In this document: in pieces, positions 502-6,548 of the stretch
How the letters are laid out: every line of letters starts with the position of its first letter
How positions within the stretch are numbered: position 1 is the stretch's first letter
NCBI GenBank assembly: GCA_003696125.1
Contig: RFHZ01000392.1
Location: forward strand, 1 to 6,548
Reading direction: 5' to 3'
DNA from: Nitrospinota bacterium
GTDB lineage: Bacteria; Tectomicrobia; Entotheonellia; J063
Length of the DNA: 6,548 nt
Position numbers and translations under genes: made by a program
Notes under the pieces: generated by a model
Databases searched by the model: none
What the model was told of the DNA's origin: nothing
Seen by the model: the letters and a program-made list of their open reading frames with translations, nothing else

Positions 502-529
502 ATTATAGTGGACTCCTCTCCCCTTGCAA
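502..529 (-). promoter_or_regulatory. Sigma70-type promoter of the UroD-like gene
   Basis: Read on the minus strand, TTGCAA (529-524) is followed after 16 bp by a perfect TATAAT (507-502). A transcript would start near 495, leaving a leader of about 58 nt before the ATG at 437. The -35 differs from TTGACA at two positions but lies in a sequence block repeated upstream of other genes in the window, which raises its credibility. This is prediction from sequence only. Confidence 0.65.
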
Positions 530-537
530 ATCCTTTC
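521..537. repeat. Intergenic TTGCAA element, copy 1
   Basis: The 17-base sequence CCCTTGCAAATCCTTTC is identical to positions 3138-3154. Its left part, CTCCCCTTGCAAATC (518-532), is identical to the complement of 4322-4336. All three copies are intergenic, and in each the central TTGCAA stands at -35 spacing from a -10-like box. It could be a shared -35 region, a regulator-binding site or both. Confidence 0.7.
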
Positions 538-552
538 CTCTCCGTATAGAAT
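524..552 (+). promoter_or_regulatory. Promoter of the molybdoenzyme gene, sharing its -35 with the divergent promoter
   Basis: On the plus strand the same TTGCAA (524-529) is followed after 17 bp by TAGAAT (547-552), one mismatch from the consensus -10. The start of transcription would be near 559, with a leader of about 38 nt. TTGCAA is its own reverse complement, so one hexamer can serve as the -35 box in both directions. The two promoters would then compete, or be controlled jointly by one bound protein. Confidence 0.6.
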
Positions 553-583
553 GCAACAGGGAAGGCAACGGTGAATCATGACT

Positions 584-590
584 AAAGGAG
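584..590 (+). promoter_or_regulatory. Ribosome-binding site of the molybdoenzyme gene
   Basis: AAAGGAG lies 6 nt before the first of two consecutive ATG codons (597 and 600) and fixes the start there. An upstream ATG at 578 is in another frame. Confidence 0.8.
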
Positions 591-596
591 AGACGG

Positions 597-2888
597 ATGA
601 TGCCAGAATACGAAACGGTTGGGAAACGCGTTCCCCGGGTCGATGCCTGGGAAAAAGTGACCGGTCAGGGACTCTATACGGCTGACTTCAGGCCCAAGGA
701 CATGCTTTATGGGGCCTTCCTCTTGAGTCCTCTTCCCCATGCCCGCATCCTTCATCTCGACACCTCGCGTGCAGAAAAACTGCCGGGAGTGAAGGCGGTA
801 CTCACCGCCTGGAACACTCCCTCCTGGCGATTCGGCCCTTTCATCAAGGATCAAACCCTTTTCCCGCGGGAAAAGGTGCGTTATGTGGGGGAACGAATCG
901 CGGCGGTGGCGGCAGTCGATCGAGAAACGGCCCAGGAGGCTCTCGATCTGATCACCGTAGAATTCGAGGAACTCCCGGCCGTTTTTGATCCCCTGGAAGC
1001 GCTAAAACCGGATGCCCCTGTCATCCATGAAGCCCTGTCTACCTATCCAGGCGTTGATCCTGCAGTGGCCAGAGGCAATCTCTGTGCGGTCACCAGGCTG
1101 GAACGGGGGGATATTCAAGAGGGGTTTTCCCAGGCGGATCATATCTTTGAAGACACCTTCCGCACCTCGATGACACAGCAATGCCCCCTGGAGACCCACG
1201 TTACCCTGGCGGCAAAGGACCATGGTGGACACGTTACCATCTGGAGCTCAACGCAGAATCCCTTCCTGGTCCGCTCGGTTATCGCCGAAATGCTGCAGGT
1301 CCCACTCAACAAAATCCGGGTCATCCCTCCCCTGATCGGTGGAGGTTTCGGGAGCAAAACCAACTATGAACTGGAACCGTACGCCGTGCTCCTGGCCCAG
1401 GCTACCGGCAAACCGGTCCTCCTGGCCATCAGCCGGGAAGAGGAGTTCTACCGCAGCAAGCCTCGCCATCCCTGTATCATCCAGATGAAGACCGGGGTGA
1501 CCAGGGAGGGAATCCTGGTGGCACGTGAGGTCAAGCTCCTCTTCGACACCGGAGCCACCGCCGATCCTGGCCCGTCCATGCTTGCCCCCACCATCGTCCG
1601 CGGTCCCTATCGCATCCCCCACCTCAAGGTGGAAAGTTCCTGTGTGTATACCAACAAGATCGGCTGTGGCTCGTTCCGCGCTCCGGGTGGGGTAGCTTCG
1701 GCCTTTGCCTTTGAATCCCAGATGGACATCATCGCCGATGCCCTCGGCATCGATCCGCGGGAACTCCGCTTGAAAAACGCGGTGCGGGAAGGGGACCTCT
1801 CCTCCCCAGGGCAACGCCTGGATAAGGTCGGGTTTATCGAGACCATAGAACGGGCCACGGCCCAGGCGAACTATGAGGTGCGCAGGATCGAACTGGCACG
1901 AGAGAATCAGGAGAAGCAGGGGAAGAACAAGAGGCGAGGGATAGGGATGGCCTGTGGGGAGTGGCGACTCTCTGGAGGGCGCAGCTCCGGTGCCTGGGTC
2001 AAGATGCACGAAGACGGGAGTATAGGGCTCTCCGTGGGATCGACCGATCTGGGAACCGGAGCCTATACCGTCCTGGTCCAGATGGTGGCAGAGGAACTGG
2101 GCGTCCCGATGGAGGAGGTCACCCTGGTCGCGGCCGATACCGAGATCACCCCGTACGATACCACCAGTGGGGGGAGTCGCGTTACCGTCAGCATGGGGAA
2201 TGCCGTGCGCAGGGCCGCACGGGAGGTGAGAGAGCAGTTGCTCGAGCTGGCCGCAGAGCGGCTGGAGGCACGAAAGGACGATCTGGTGATCGCCCAGAAG
2301 CAGGTCTATGTCAAGGGATCTCCCGACCGGGCCCTCTCCTTCCGAGAACTCTCCCAGTACAGCCACACGCGAGGCAAGGGTCCTCTCCTGGGCAAAGGGA
2401 GCTTTACCTCACCGCTACCCACCAGCCTGCCTACTTACTGCACCCATGTTGCCGAAGTAGAGGTCGATGTAGAGACCGGAGAGGTAAGGGTCTTGCGGGT
2501 AGTGGCTGCCCATGATGTCGGTTTTGCCATCCATCCCACCAACCTGGAGGGACAGATCCAGGGAGGAGTGGCCCAGGCACTCGGTCACGCCCTCCTGGAG
2601 GAGACCCGCTTTGATCAGGGACGCATCGCCAACGCCTCCTTCCTCGACTACAAGATCCCTTCCTCACAGGATGTTCCCCCGATCAATGCCCTCCTGGTTG
2701 AGGTGGGAGACGAGAAGGGACCTTTTGGGGCGCGAGGCATCGGAGAACCTCCCATCATCCCTACCGCCCCGGCTATTGCCAATGCCATCGCCCATGCCAT
2801 TGGTGTGCGCATCAAAGAGCTGCCTATCACACCGGAGAAGATTTTGCAGGCCCTCCGCCAGGGAGGAAGGCAGAAGGAGATGACCTGA
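597..2888 (+). CDS. Xanthine dehydrogenase/CO dehydrogenase-family molybdopterin-binding large subunit
   Basis: This complete 763-residue protein has the usual length for a separate Mo-binding subunit. The N-terminal aldehyde oxidase/xanthine dehydrogenase a/b-hammerhead domain spans about residues 15-130 (VGKRVPRVDAWEKVTG near the start). The molybdopterin-binding domains fill about residues 150-750. Visible family motifs are STQNPF with Gln220, the GGGFG loop at 248-252, an active-site loop CGSFRAPGG at 357-365 with Arg361, GGSRVTVSMGNAV, and GARGIGEPP with Glu717, the position of the general-base glutamate of this family. The loop is neither the AYxCSFR form of true CO dehydrogenase CoxL nor the AYRGAGR form of the form II group, so CO oxidation is unlikely; hydroxylation of a heterocycle, aldehyde or acyl-CoA compound is more probable. 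The enzyme normally works as a cytoplasmic complex with FAD and 2Fe-2S subunits, but none is encoded next to it. The gene is divergent from the UroD-like gene and convergent with the small membrane peptide gene. Family assignment is firm; substrate unknown. Confidence 0.95.
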   Translation: MMPEYETVGKRVPRVDAWEKVTGQGLYTADFRPKDMLYGAFLLSPLPHARILHLDTSRAEKLPGVKAVLTAWNTPSWRFGPFIKDQTLFPREKVRYVGERIAAVAAVDRETAQEALDLITVEFEELPAVFDPLEALKPDAPVIHEALSTYPGVDPAVARGNLCAVTRLERGDIQEGFSQADHIFEDTFRTSMTQQCPLETHVTLAAKDHGGHVTIWSSTQNPFLVRSVIAEMLQVPLNKIRVIPPLIGGGFGSKTNYELEPYAVLLAQATGKPVLLAISREEEFYRSKPRHPCIIQMKTGVTREGILVAREVKLLFDTGATADPGPSMLAPTIVRGPYRIPHLKVESSCVYTNKIGCGSFRAPGGVASAFAFESQMDIIADALGIDPRELRLKNAVREGDLSSPGQRLDKVGFIETIERATAQANYEVRRIELARENQEKQGKNKRRGIGMACGEWRLSGGRSSGAWVKMHEDGSIGLSVGSTDLGTGAYTVLVQMVAEELGVPMEEVTLVAADTEITPYDTTSGGSRVTVSMGNAVRRAAREVREQLLELAAERLEARKDDLVIAQKQVYVKGSPDRALSFRELSQYSHTRGKGPLLGKGSFTSPLPTSLPTYCTHVAEVEVDVETGEVRVLRVVAAHDVGFAIHPTNLEGQIQGGVAQALGHALLEETRFDQGRIANASFLDYKIPSSQDVPPINALLVEVGDEKGPFGARGIGEPPIIPTAPAIANAIAHAIGVRIKELPITPEKILQALRQGGRQKEMT

Positions 2889-2914
2889 GCGTAGAGGTAG
2901 GACCACACGGAGGC

Positions 2915-2950
2915 AGGGACCGAGGTGGCAGCAGAGGCTTCCCGGTCCCT
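2915..2950. terminator. Hairpin between convergent genes, possible weak terminator
   Basis: AGGGACCG (2915-2922) pairs perfectly with CGGTCCCT (2943-2950), giving an 8 bp stem and a 20-nt loop. It lies in the 83 bp between two convergent stop codons, where a bidirectional terminator is expected. Neither strand has a T tract after the stem, so it does not fit a standard intrinsic terminator. Confidence 0.35.
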
Positions 2951-2971
2951 CATAAAAATCGGTCGAAACCC

Positions 2972-3070
2972 TTATTCTTCATTACCTGAGTAGCGCGTAT
3001 AGAGATAAGCCAGACAGGCCAGAAAGAGCACAAAGAGCAAACCCACGATGAAGAGCAGCAGTCTGTCCAT
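2972..3070 (-). CDS. Small single-helix membrane peptide (32 aa), unrecognised family
   Basis: ATG at 3070-3068 opens a 32-codon frame ending in TAA at 2974-2972. The peptide begins MDR, has one strongly hydrophobic helix at about residues 4-24 (LLLFIVGLLFVLFLACLAYLY) and ends in a short polar tail with TRYSGNEE. This is the typical build of a bacterial one-helix membrane peptide; I do not recognise a family. Support comes from a promoter at 3118-3146 with a perfect TATAAT at 17 bp spacing, and a very strong ribosome-binding site at 3084-3095. The start is uncertain: the AGGAGG core is 17 nt from this ATG, which is long. An in-frame GTG at 3088-3086 would add six residues (VNGTSL) but overlaps the site itself. 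It is convergent with the molybdoenzyme gene. Its promoter element resembles those of the neighbouring genes, so it may be expressed with them. Small peptides of this kind often bind and modulate a membrane protein; here that is only a guess. Confidence 0.65.
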   Translation of the reverse strand: MDRLLLFIVGLLFVLFLACLAYLYTRYSGNEE

Positions 3071-3083
3071 GAGCGAAGTCCCG

Positions 3084-3095
3084 TTCACCTCCTTT
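3084..3095 (-). promoter_or_regulatory. Strong ribosome-binding site of the small membrane peptide gene
   Basis: On the minus strand the sequence is AAAGGAGGTGAA, almost fully complementary to the 16S rRNA anti-Shine-Dalgarno. It contains the alternative GTG start. It sits 17 nt (from AGGAGG) ahead of the ATG at 3070, so it leaves the exact start open but argues strongly that something is translated here. Confidence 0.7.
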
Positions 3096-3117
3096 CCCTT
3101 CTCCTAATCGATTCCTT

Positions 3118-3146
3118 ATTATACGGGGCTTTCTCCTCCCTTGCAA
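3118..3146 (-). promoter_or_regulatory. Promoter of the small membrane peptide gene
   Basis: On the minus strand TTGCAA (3146-3141) is followed after exactly 17 bp by TATAAT (3123-3118). Transcription would begin near 3111, about 41 nt before the ATG. In the plus direction no -10-like box appears at the right distance, so this copy is one-directional. Confidence 0.65.
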
Positions 3147-3154
3147 ATCCTTTC
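3138..3154. repeat. Intergenic TTGCAA element, copy 2
   Basis: These 17 bases are identical to copy 1 at 521-537, and similarity continues into the pyrimidine-rich flanks. Relative to the gene it serves, it has the same orientation as copy 1 has to the UroD-like gene. Confidence 0.7.
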
Positions 3155-3238
3155 TCGCTGCTGTGCCTGTTTCCTTCATGTGCTCACCTCTCTACAGGGT
3201 TGTGTCGAGGCGGATATTCCAGAAAGGGCCACACAGAG

Positions 3239-4204
3239 CTATCGTCGTTTGGCCAGGTAGATCCCTCCCAGGACCAGCATGCCACCCAGGATTTTCGGAA
3301 CCGTAATCGGCTCTCCCAACACCATCCAGGCACCGATAACGGCGATGACCGGGGTCAGGTACTGGTAGATCACGGTCCGATTGAGTCCCATCCCCGCCAC
3401 TCCCCAGGTCCACAATAGTGAAGCCAGAATCATGTTACCAGCCGCCGTATAGACGACGAGGCTCCAGGTAATAGGGGGAATGGCAGACCAGGACTGGTGA
3501 GGGAACTGGGAGGCTCCTACCGGTAGTAGCAGGGTAAGGCCGGTGGTCAAAGAGAAGATGGTCACCTGGGGGACAGAGTACTTCTCTCCGATCCGTTTCT
3601 TCACCATGATCAAATAATAGGACCAGGCAACAGAACCAGCCAGGACCAGGAGTCCTCCGTAGACATCGGCCGAGCTGATGCGCAATCCCTGTCCCTGCGT
3701 CACCACCAGATAGATCCCTCCGATGGAGAGACCGATCCCCAGCCATCCCCGGCCAGCCATCGCTTCCTGTCCGGTAAGCGCCATATAGAGGATGGTAAAT
3801 ACCGGGGTGCTACAGGAAATCAGAGCGGCATTAGAGGCAGAGGTATAGAGCAGCCCCAAACTCCAGCAGATAGAAGAGAGCCCTCTTCCCATGACCCCGG
3901 GGAGAAAGAAGGGCTTCCAGGCTCGAAAAAGGGGGCGGAGCTGGCGTTCCTGCTGCCAGAGAAGGATCCAGCCGATCACCACCCCCAGCGTGTTCCGGAA
4001 TACCAGGAAGACCCAGGGGTGGAAGTGGAGGAGGATCAGCTTGGTCACAATATTGTTCATCCCTTGAATCAGGGTAGAACAGAGGACGGCCAGATCAAAG
4101 AGAGAGAACGCCCCTTTTTCTCCCGATTTCTGCCGGGCCAGTGCCCGTTCCTGCTGCCACCAGCGGGAAAATCTTAGATACAAGGCAATCGCGGATAAAC
4201 CCAT
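3239..4204 (-). CDS. EamA/DMT-superfamily transporter, ten membrane helices
   Basis: The protein is a drug/metabolite transporter-superfamily permease in the inner membrane. From the ATG at 4204-4202 it has 321 residues, close to the family's usual 290-320. About ten hydrophobic segments form two EamA repeats: the first half runs from LFDLAVLCSTLIQG to IGGIYLVVTQG, the second from YGGLLVLAGSVAWSYYLI to the C-terminus. The second repeat ends with the typical WMVLGEPIT turn (Glu at about residue 298) and a final LGGIYLAKRR helix. The matching turn in the first half is GQEAM. The frame is open up to a TTG at 4330, but that TTG is the proposed -35 box, and the ATG at 4303 overlaps the -10. An ATG at 4273 remains possible. 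None of these starts has a Shine-Dalgarno site, so the start is chosen by family length. Such permeases export or import amino acids, their derivatives or other small metabolites; this one's substrate is unknown. Confidence 0.9.
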   Translation of the reverse strand: MGLSAIALYLRFSRWWQQERALARQKSGEKGAFSLFDLAVLCSTLIQGMNNIVTKLILLHFHPWVFLVFRNTLGVVIGWILLWQQERQLRPLFRAWKPFFLPGVMGRGLSSICWSLGLLYTSASNAALISCSTPVFTILYMALTGQEAMAGRGWLGIGLSIGGIYLVVTQGQGLRISSADVYGGLLVLAGSVAWSYYLIMVKKRIGEKYSVPQVTIFSLTTGLTLLLPVGASQFPHQSWSAIPPITWSLVVYTAAGNMILASLLWTWGVAGMGLNRTVIYQYLTPVIAVIGAWMVLGEPITVPKILGGMLVLGGIYLAKRR

Positions 4205-4216
4205 ACTGTTTTCGCG

Positions 4217-4279
4217 TGTGATGTGTGGTGTTGAGCGTGTGCGGCATGTGATGTCTGGCGTTTGATGTCGCATGGGCGG
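4217..4279. repeat. Degenerate two-copy tandem repeat in the transporter leader
   Basis: A 30-base unit at 4217-4246 beginning TGTGATGTGTGGTGTT is followed directly by a related 33-base unit at 4247-4279 beginning TGTGATGTCTGGCGTTT. Both end in CGG or CGGCA. On the transcribed (minus) sense the leader is rich in A and C (ACACCACACATCACAC) and nearly free of G runs. It lies between the proposed promoter and the chosen start of the transporter. Confidence 0.45.
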
Positions 4280-4301
4280 TACAGACCGGGCATGCACAAC
4301 C

Positions 4302-4330
4302 ATGATAGCGGGTAGTGGGGAGATTTGCAA
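4302..4330 (-). promoter_or_regulatory. Probable promoter of the EamA transporter gene
   Basis: On the minus strand TTGCAA (4330-4325) is followed after 17 bp by TATCAT (4307-4302), one mismatch from TATAAT. The transcript would start near 4295, giving a leader of about 91 nt to the ATG at 4204. The plus direction has only weak -10 candidates. Confidence 0.5.
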
Positions 4331-4336
4331 GGGGAG
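4322..4336. repeat. Intergenic TTGCAA element, copy 3
   Basis: GATTTGCAAGGGGAG is identical to the complement of 518-532, so 15 bases are shared with copy 1. Relative to the transporter gene it has the orientation that copy 1 has to the molybdoenzyme gene, with CTCCCC upstream of TTGCAAATC. Confidence 0.6.
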
Positions 4337-4410: not shown

Positions 4411-5601
4411 TTATCCGATGACCGTATAGCCATATCTGGCCTGGATCAGCCTCCCCTCTGCATAGCGGTTAAACCGGAATAGCGAGATGTCAGCCGGTTC
4501 GGTACACTTCCCCTCGGTGATCAGCCTGGCCATCATCTCTCCAATAGCGGGTGAGAGCTTAAAGCCATGGCCGCTGAATCCCACCGCGCAGTACAACCCT
4601 TCAAAACCGGGGAGCGCATCGAGGATCGGATGCCAGTCCGGGGTCACATCGTACGGTCCGGCCCATCCCCCCTTATAGTATCCTCTCTCCAGAATGGGAT
4701 AGCGCAGGCAGGCCTTCCCGAAGTACTCTTCCATGGTCTCAAAGGTGAGGTCATCGCTGTACGCATCCGGATCGATCCTGTCCTCTGCCTCCCGGGGATC
4801 GATGGACCCGACCAGGGACAACTCCCCTGTCTCTGGCCGGTAGTACATCTGGTGCACAAAATCGACAAACACTTTAGGGGCCGGTGTGAATTCTGGAGGA
4901 CGCTTGACGGCAAGGACCTTGGAGCGACAGCTCACGATAGGGAACTCCACACCGATCTTCTCCCCCAGCTTTGGACTCCAGACCCCGGTGGCCAGAACCA
5001 CGGTGGGGGCACTGATGTCACCTCGACTGGTCCGCACTCCCCGCACCTTGCCTCCCTGCAAGAGGATATCGGTCACCAGGGTCCCCTGCAGGATGGTGGC
5101 TCCGAGTTCCCGGGCCCGCCGGGCAAAGGAGACCGTGGTTCCTGAAGGGTCTGCATACCCGGAATCCGGTTCGTACGCCCCTCCACCGAAATCCTCCACG
5201 CGGAGTGTCGGCTCGATCTCCTTCATCTCCTGCGGGGAGACGAAGCGGGTGTTGACACCGACTCCCTGCTGCAGGGCGATACTCCCCTTGAGCGCCTCCA
5301 CGCTCTGCGGGCCCACGCCGACCAGAAAGCCGGCCTGGACAAAGCCGGCATTTCCTCCCACCGCATCGGCGAAGTTTTGAAAGATACGGAAACTGTAGAG
5401 AGCCATTTTGGCCAGGGTTTCGGTCGAATAGTGCATCCGGATGATGGCACTCGACTTCCCCGTTGCCCCTGAAGCCAGGAAGTTTTTCTCCACCAGGACC
5501 ACATCTCTTATCCCCCGTTTAGCCAGGTGATAGGCGATGCTTGTCCCCATACACCCCCCGCCGATGATCACCACATCGGCCGTATGGACCATCTCTTGCA
5601 T
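4411..5601 (-). CDS. DAO-family FAD-dependent oxidoreductase (glycine/sarcosine oxidase-like)
   Basis: This complete 396-residue cytoplasmic flavoprotein belongs to the D-amino-acid oxidase fold family (SoxB, ThiO and DadA relatives), which oxidise primary or secondary amines, often N-methyl amino acids or D-amino acids. The N-terminal FAD-binding motif is ADVVIIGGGCMGTSIAYHLA, with G14xG16xxG19 and the ribose-binding Glu38 in VLVEK. A second conserved block, ASGATGKSSAIIRMHYS, follows. Near the C-terminus are DVTPDWHPI (TPD at 320-322) and GFSGHGFK (341-348), the typical flavin-contact end of the family. The cysteine that carries covalent FAD in monomeric sarcosine oxidases, five residues before TPD, appears to be Gly here, so FAD is probably held non-covalently. 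No signal peptide or SoxA/D/G subunit is visible. The start is well supported by AAAAGGAGG 5 nt upstream. The gene lies 97 bp after the saccharopine-dehydrogenase-like gene on the same strand, with no obvious promoter between, suggesting an operon. Whether it uses oxygen or a quinone as acceptor cannot be told. Confidence 0.93.
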   Translation of the reverse strand: MQEMVHTADVVIIGGGCMGTSIAYHLAKRGIRDVVLVEKNFLASGATGKSSAIIRMHYSTETLAKMALYSFRIFQNFADAVGGNAGFVQAGFLVGVGPQSVEALKGSIALQQGVGVNTRFVSPQEMKEIEPTLRVEDFGGGAYEPDSGYADPSGTTVSFARRARELGATILQGTLVTDILLQGGKVRGVRTSRGDISAPTVVLATGVWSPKLGEKIGVEFPIVSCRSKVLAVKRPPEFTPAPKVFVDFVHQMYYRPETGELSLVGSIDPREAEDRIDPDAYSDDLTFETMEEYFGKACLRYPILERGYYKGGWAGPYDVTPDWHPILDALPGFEGLYCAVGFSGHGFKLSPAIGEMMARLITEGKCTEPADISLFRFNRYAEGRLIQARYGYTVIG

Positions 5602-5697: not shown

Positions 5698-6548
5698 TCA
5701 GAGCCGTTGCACCGTTTCCCATCGCTCGGTGATAGTAAAATTTCGCCGGGCAAGCTCCTGCAGGAAGGAGGAGAAGGGGATATCCCGTTCAGGACGCAGC
5801 ACACCAGGGCGGGAGATCTCACCCCGGCCTACCATCTGGCAGACGATAGAGCAGGGGAAAGCGGTACAGCGATTCATGGCGGTCAGGCCCTGTTCCTGGT
5901 CGTAGTAATCGATCATCTCATAGGTCAGCCGGGTCGCCTTCCCTCCCTTCTCTCCCTTGATCTCTACCTGCAGCACCACCATATCCCCTTCCCCCTCTTG
6001 GAAGGCCAGCACCCTGGCAAAATGGGCAGCCAGGAAATCGCGCGGGGAAAGGGTAAAGGAGGAGATCTGCAGGGGTTCTTCACTCATGAAGCCGAGTGCT
6101 CTGAGGGTCTCCCACACCTGACAGGTCCCCGGCCAGCGCACGGTCCACATGGCAATGTTCCGTACATCCTTTAATCCCAGGGTCTGGACCAGGAAGGTCC
6201 GGTCTCCGGTATAGAAACACTCGCATTCCCCACACGGATCGGGAAACCGCTTTCGTTTGAGGCCAGTAATCAGCGGGTTTTCAATGACGGTGGGTTTGCC
6301 ATCCTGCAGGATGGTGGCCGGACGCCCATGCAAGCCGATCGTGTTTTCTACCGCCCAGGAGATCTTATAGCGGAGGGGACCGACAGGAGGGACCTGGGGT
6401 TGGGGGATACCCCCGGTATAGATCTCAATTTCCTCTACCTGATCGAGCTTTTGTATGCCGTACCCGGTCAGAATCAGGTCAAGACCCGGTTCGAGCCCAC
6501 AGTCAGGGATGATGGTAACCCCGGCCGTCTTTGCCGCCTCATCAAAGG
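5698..6548 (-). CDS. Saccharopine dehydrogenase-family protein, C-terminal 282 residues
   Basis: The frame is open from the right edge to TGA at 5700-5698, so the N-terminal NAD(P)-binding Rossmann part (typically 100-130 residues) lies outside the window. The visible portion begins FDEAAKTAGVTIIPDCGLEPG, the strand and PDCGLxPG loop found in saccharopine dehydrogenase and lysine 6-dehydrogenase relatives. The C-terminal catalytic/dimer domain follows, with ECFYTGDRTFLVQTL and MWTVRWPGTCQVWETLRALGF matching the family's EAFyTdG..TL and kTlRyPGH patterns. The family usually has His after RYPG; here it is Thr (RWPGT). Cysteines are unusually frequent (PCGECECF, CTAFPCSIVC). The last part, GVLRPERDIPFSSFLQELARR, is the usual family ending. 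Members make or split secondary amines from amino acids with NAD(P)H; the exact substrate is not evident. It lies upstream of the amine-oxidising flavoprotein on the same strand, which suggests a shared amino-acid or amine degradation route. Confidence 0.9.
   Translation of the reverse strand, partial: FDEAAKTAGVTIIPDCGLEPGLDLILTGYGIQKLDQVEEIEIYTGGIPQPQVPPVGPLRYKISWAVENTIGLHGRPATILQDGKPTVIENPLITGLKRKRFPDPCGECECFYTGDRTFLVQTLGLKDVRNIAMWTVRWPGTCQVWETLRALGFMSEEPLQISSFTLSPRDFLAAHFARVLAFQEGEGDMVVLQVEIKGEKGGKATRLTYEMIDYYDQEQGLTAMNRCTAFPCSIVCQMVGRGEISRPGVLRPERDIPFSSFLQELARRNFTITERWETVQRL

Follow-up and report, generated by a model that had tools for sequence, protein, structure and literature searches.

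The 12-mer CCCTTGCAAATC occurs exactly three times in a 6.5-kb contig, always between genes and always with a good −10 box at 16–17 bp. Because one copy is common to two directions, the three serve four predicted promoters. We lean towards the view that these are four sigma-70 promoters of a single catabolic gene cluster which also carry a site for a regulator dedicated to that cluster, most likely a repressor that would bind over the −35 box. If so, the genes of this catabolic cluster, which is uncharacterised and belongs to a poorly sampled phylum, should be regulated together.

Results

The window, i.e. the whole stretch of DNA that was analysed, spans contig C721 (6548 bp) from end to end, one of the 990 contigs of a 4.18-Mb draft genome. 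It amounts to 0.16% of the genome, and both of its outer genes are cut by the contig ends. The features considered here, with the −10 boxes taken from a sigma-70 scan, are as follows.

3–437, − strand: truncated gene, 145 aa; start resembles UroD-type methyltransferases, no library match
502–507, − strand: −10 box TATAAT, spacer 16; predicted leftward promoter of the truncated gene
518–537, + strand: element copy 1, CTCCCCTTGCAAATCCTTTC; TTGCAA at 524–529, predicted −35 box in both directions
547–552, + strand: −10 box TAGAAT, spacer 17; predicted rightward promoter of the molybdenum hydroxylase gene
597–2888, + strand: xanthine-dehydrogenase-type molybdopterin-binding subunit (molybdenum hydroxylase); Pfam MoCoBD_1/2, Ald_Xan_dh_C
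2972–3070, − strand: possible 32-aa peptide with a single membrane span, MDRLLLFIVGLLFVLFLACLAYLYTRYSGNEE, from reading of the sequence
3118–3123, − strand: −10 box TATAAT, spacer 17; predicted leftward promoter
3138–3154, + strand: element copy 2, CCCTTGCAAATCCTTTC; TTGCAA at 3141–3146
3239–4201, − strand: EamA-family transporter (Pfam EamA); start uncertain, open frame reaches 4330
4302–4307, − strand: −10 box TATCAT, spacer 17; predicted leftward promoter of the transporter gene
4322–4336, − strand: element copy 3, CTCCCCTTGCAAATC; TTGCAA at 4325–4330
4411–5601: FAD-dependent (DAO) oxidase related to sarcosine oxidase

The contig also encodes a protein with a saccharopine-dehydrogenase C-terminal domain, and by its gene content the cluster looks like one for the catabolism of an amine or amino acid. 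A ribosome site, AAAGGAG, is located directly 5′ of the molybdopterin-subunit gene, while AAGGAGGTGA lies upstream of the 32-aa frame at an unusually large distance from its ATG. The latter frame, introduced by the initial annotation as a small peptide, may encode a short membrane peptide but belongs to no family in Pfam or NCBIfam; the name 'UroD-like' given there to gene 3–437 found no match in Pfam, NCBIfam or PDB and is not retained. No known RNA family was detected within the window. Further repeats in the window are a perfect 20-bp palindrome, CCTTTTCCCGCGGGAAAAGG, at 857–876 within the molybdoenzyme gene and a 16-bp repeat, CCTGCAGGATGGTGGC, at 5085–5100 and 6303–6318, each copy in a different gene and the second with a palindrome, CCATCCTGCAGGATGG.

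The repeats and the four −10 boxes had been described in the initial annotation, and every coordinate and spacing proved correct base for base. On the + strand CCCTTGCAAATCCTTTC is identical at 521–537 and 3138–3154, and CTCCCCTTGCAAATC is found at 518–532 and, inverted, at 4322–4336. An independent, neutral sigma-70 scan of the window returned 8 promoter-like sites against 2.3 expected, two of the eight being the same boxes shifted by one base, and recovered all four promoters. In all four directions −35 and −10 hexamers are separated by a spacer of 16–17 bp; the −10 boxes match the consensus in five or six of six positions, TTGCAA matches the −35 consensus in four of six. The asymmetric core occurs both ways round: it reads TTGCAAATC in two of the promoters and TTGCAAGGG in the other two. 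Opposite the truncated gene runs a spurious antisense frame of 192 aa, which overlaps copy 1. We also considered a sigma-54 promoter (GG-N10-GC), but bases 514–515 at copy 1, ten before the GC at 526–527, are not GG.

Coding and intergenic segments of the window were shuffled separately with dinucleotides kept (n = 21,095), and because the window had been chosen for this feature the resulting figures are guides and not exact probabilities: some 12-mer appeared three times anywhere in the window in 115 shuffles, a 12-mer appeared three times with all copies intergenic in none, and a 17-mer appeared twice with both copies intergenic in three. Whereas the first figure speaks for a chance repeat, such an origin is very improbable in view of the second, of the −35 spacing that all three copies share, and of the genomic distribution of TTGCAA promoters. 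The pattern TTGCAA-N16/17-TANNAT has 14 sites in the genome (2 in controls), four of which are on contig C721 (binomial 6e-9, for a comparison chosen after the fact). Ordinary sigma-70 promoters are also present in this genome, as TTGACA-N16/17-TANNAT matches 61 sites (2 in controls). None of the ten remaining TTGCAA-N16/17-TANNAT sites has the CCC...ATC flanks, which therefore fall outside any general promoter class.

Only four exact copies of CCCTTGCAAATC exist in the 4.18 Mb, three of them those of the window; the fourth, on C691, falls inside a phosphoglycerate kinase reading frame and was set aside. The shorter CTTGCAAATC gave 11 matches, i.e. ten places once two overlapping contig ends were joined, with three in the window. 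When at most two mismatches were allowed, CCCTTGCAAATCC had 82 listed matches, compared with 56 for the reversed control. We classified 81 distinct places, including the window's three, and the majority of the 78 outside it lie in open reading frames, coding being called from long open frames rather than by a gene finder. A −10 box of at least 5/6 at 16–18 bp accompanies three of the 78 (C243, C359 and C282); C282 is coding, which leaves C243 and C359 as intergenic. The initial annotation had proposed a search of this kind to see whether hits concentrate at promoters, and outside the window they do so in only 2 of 78 cases. Sites of this type are thus not enriched at promoters across the genome; they are concentrated at the promoters of adjacent genes. 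The idea that CCCTTGCAAATC marks a regulon spanning the genome, or a specialised promoter class, is largely refuted, and we regard it as very improbable. Two outside sites would fit it. On C359, an HTH_3 regulator gene is preceded by CCCTTGCAAATTT with CATAAT at a distance of 16 bp; on C629/C812, the region that separates an EamA transporter gene from a cyclase gene contains CTCTTGCAAATCTCC, without a good −10 box. The HTH_3 protein is a candidate, as yet unsupported, for the regulator of the cluster. What stands of the earlier proposal of a common regulator or promoter class is a well-supported shared local control element, and the four genes proposed to form one regulon are neighbours in one cluster, so that any regulon would be cluster-sized. 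As a separate observation, C629 (L110 2914–3266) and C812 (L115) have an overlap of 353 bp in which 14 positions differ, none of them in the last 93 bp, which contain CTCTTGCAAATCTCC. The differences suggest that two strains are present in the draft genome.

Among the genomes compared, the cluster was not found in any close relative, the comparison within the phylum comprising only four other genomes, from another family. In these four the exact 12-mer occurs twice in G003 and once in G001, in no case within a recognisable matching cluster. A molybdoenzyme–oxidase pair in G036 (C25) lacks TTGCAA, but is only 41–47% alike.

Among hexamers that start with TTG, TTGCAA alone is self-complementary. 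Because of this property, one copy can serve two divergent promoters as −35 box, which yields a simple rule: a −35 box common to two divergent promoters and reading TTG both ways must be TTGCAA. Self-complementarity accounts for TTGCAA at 524–529 and leaves the hexamer of copies 2 and 3 unexplained. In 386 genomes, this one included, ATTATA-N16/17-TTGCAA-N16/17-TANNAT had 32 listed matches against 3 for the reversed pattern. Since the reversed pattern contains CpG and is hence an imperfect control, we used the four composition-matched hexamers AWGCWT as a second one, which together gave 28 distinct places. Whereas the 29 distinct TTGCAA places outside the window, among which two hit pairs of the same families (G109/G245 and G048/G193) are not independent, fall into 10 between divergent genes, 8 in other noncoding DNA and 11 in coding DNA, the corresponding numbers for AWGCWT are 2, 8 and 18. 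L193 (G048) and L194 (G193), which belong to one family, have kept a near-symmetric ATTATA...TTGCAA...TATAAT divergent promoter. The palindromic shared −35 TTGCAA might be a recurring bacterial arrangement distinct from the shared −10 and, in this cluster, a regulator's operator as well, a tentative and rather doubtful proposal. The rule itself is open to testing with existing start-site maps.

Discussion

In the scenario that we favour, TTGCAA would act as the weak −35 box of four ordinary sigma-70 promoters, and the wider CCCTTGCAAATC would be the control site for a putative regulator dedicated to the cluster. This regulator, which would presumably respond to a signal of its own, would most likely be a repressor covering the −35 box. 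At 502–552 a single TTGCAA would be the −35 of two back-to-back promoters, so that polymerase could use only one of them at any moment, and binding of a single regulator could shut off the pair.

A repressor operator is probable because the asymmetric flanks occur in either orientation with respect to the promoters; occlusion fits this arrangement better than activation, as an activator must touch polymerase from one side. An activator site over the −35 region is for the same reason quite improbable, and although TTGCAA is a poor −35 box (as in activator-dependent promoters), the −10 boxes deviate from consensus by one base at most and are ideally spaced, so that the promoters look usable unaided. 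The both-way orientation also fits the main rival, a bare −35 box, in which TTGCAA would have no further role and the flanks would have arisen when a piece of promoter DNA was copied inside the cluster, no regulator being involved. In accordance with such copying, 17 bp are common to copies 1 and 2, both of which have ATTATA 16–17 bp upstream on the + strand, and the pyrimidine-rich flanks resemble those of many promoters in the genome. However, the identity breaks off abruptly after 17 bp (after 15 bp in copy 3), and all three sites have an unaltered 12-bp core next to diverged spacers, which points to its retention. We consider fragment copying unlikely. Several observations also weigh against a cluster operator: its symmetric part comprises only six bases, which is short for a dimeric operator, no regulator gene was found on the contig, and no element was seen within the upstream stretches of the oxidase gene (4411–5601) and the saccharopine gene.

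Comparison with known systems

The four promoters resemble sigma-70 promoters with a weak −35 box in TTGCAA (4/6), in the spacer of 16–17 bp and in −10 boxes of 5/6 or 6/6, but differ from them by identical CCC...ATC flanks that exceed the needs of sigma-70 and are confined to the cluster. The palindrome TTGCAA appears in one published site description for operators of CytR, a member of the LacI family, whose sites are mostly repeats between CRP sites (PMC3454398); here, by reading, each site has a single TTGCAA, and no second half-site was recognised. TTGCAA is likewise a half-site in the archaeal Ss-LrpB site TTGCAAAATTTGCAA, a 15-bp palindrome of two halves (PMC4046817), whereas the present element contains only one. 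A search of the open-licence literature, which is weak evidence of absence, yielded no description of bidirectional promoters with a shared −35. Bidirectional promoters with a shared −10 element have been described, with starts 10, 18 or 23 bp apart (PMC12825309). Copy 1 is similar to these in that one element is read in both directions and occupation would be mutually exclusive, but its common element is the −35 hexamer (524–529) instead of a symmetric −10, and the predicted starts of its back-to-back promoters lie ~64 bp apart.
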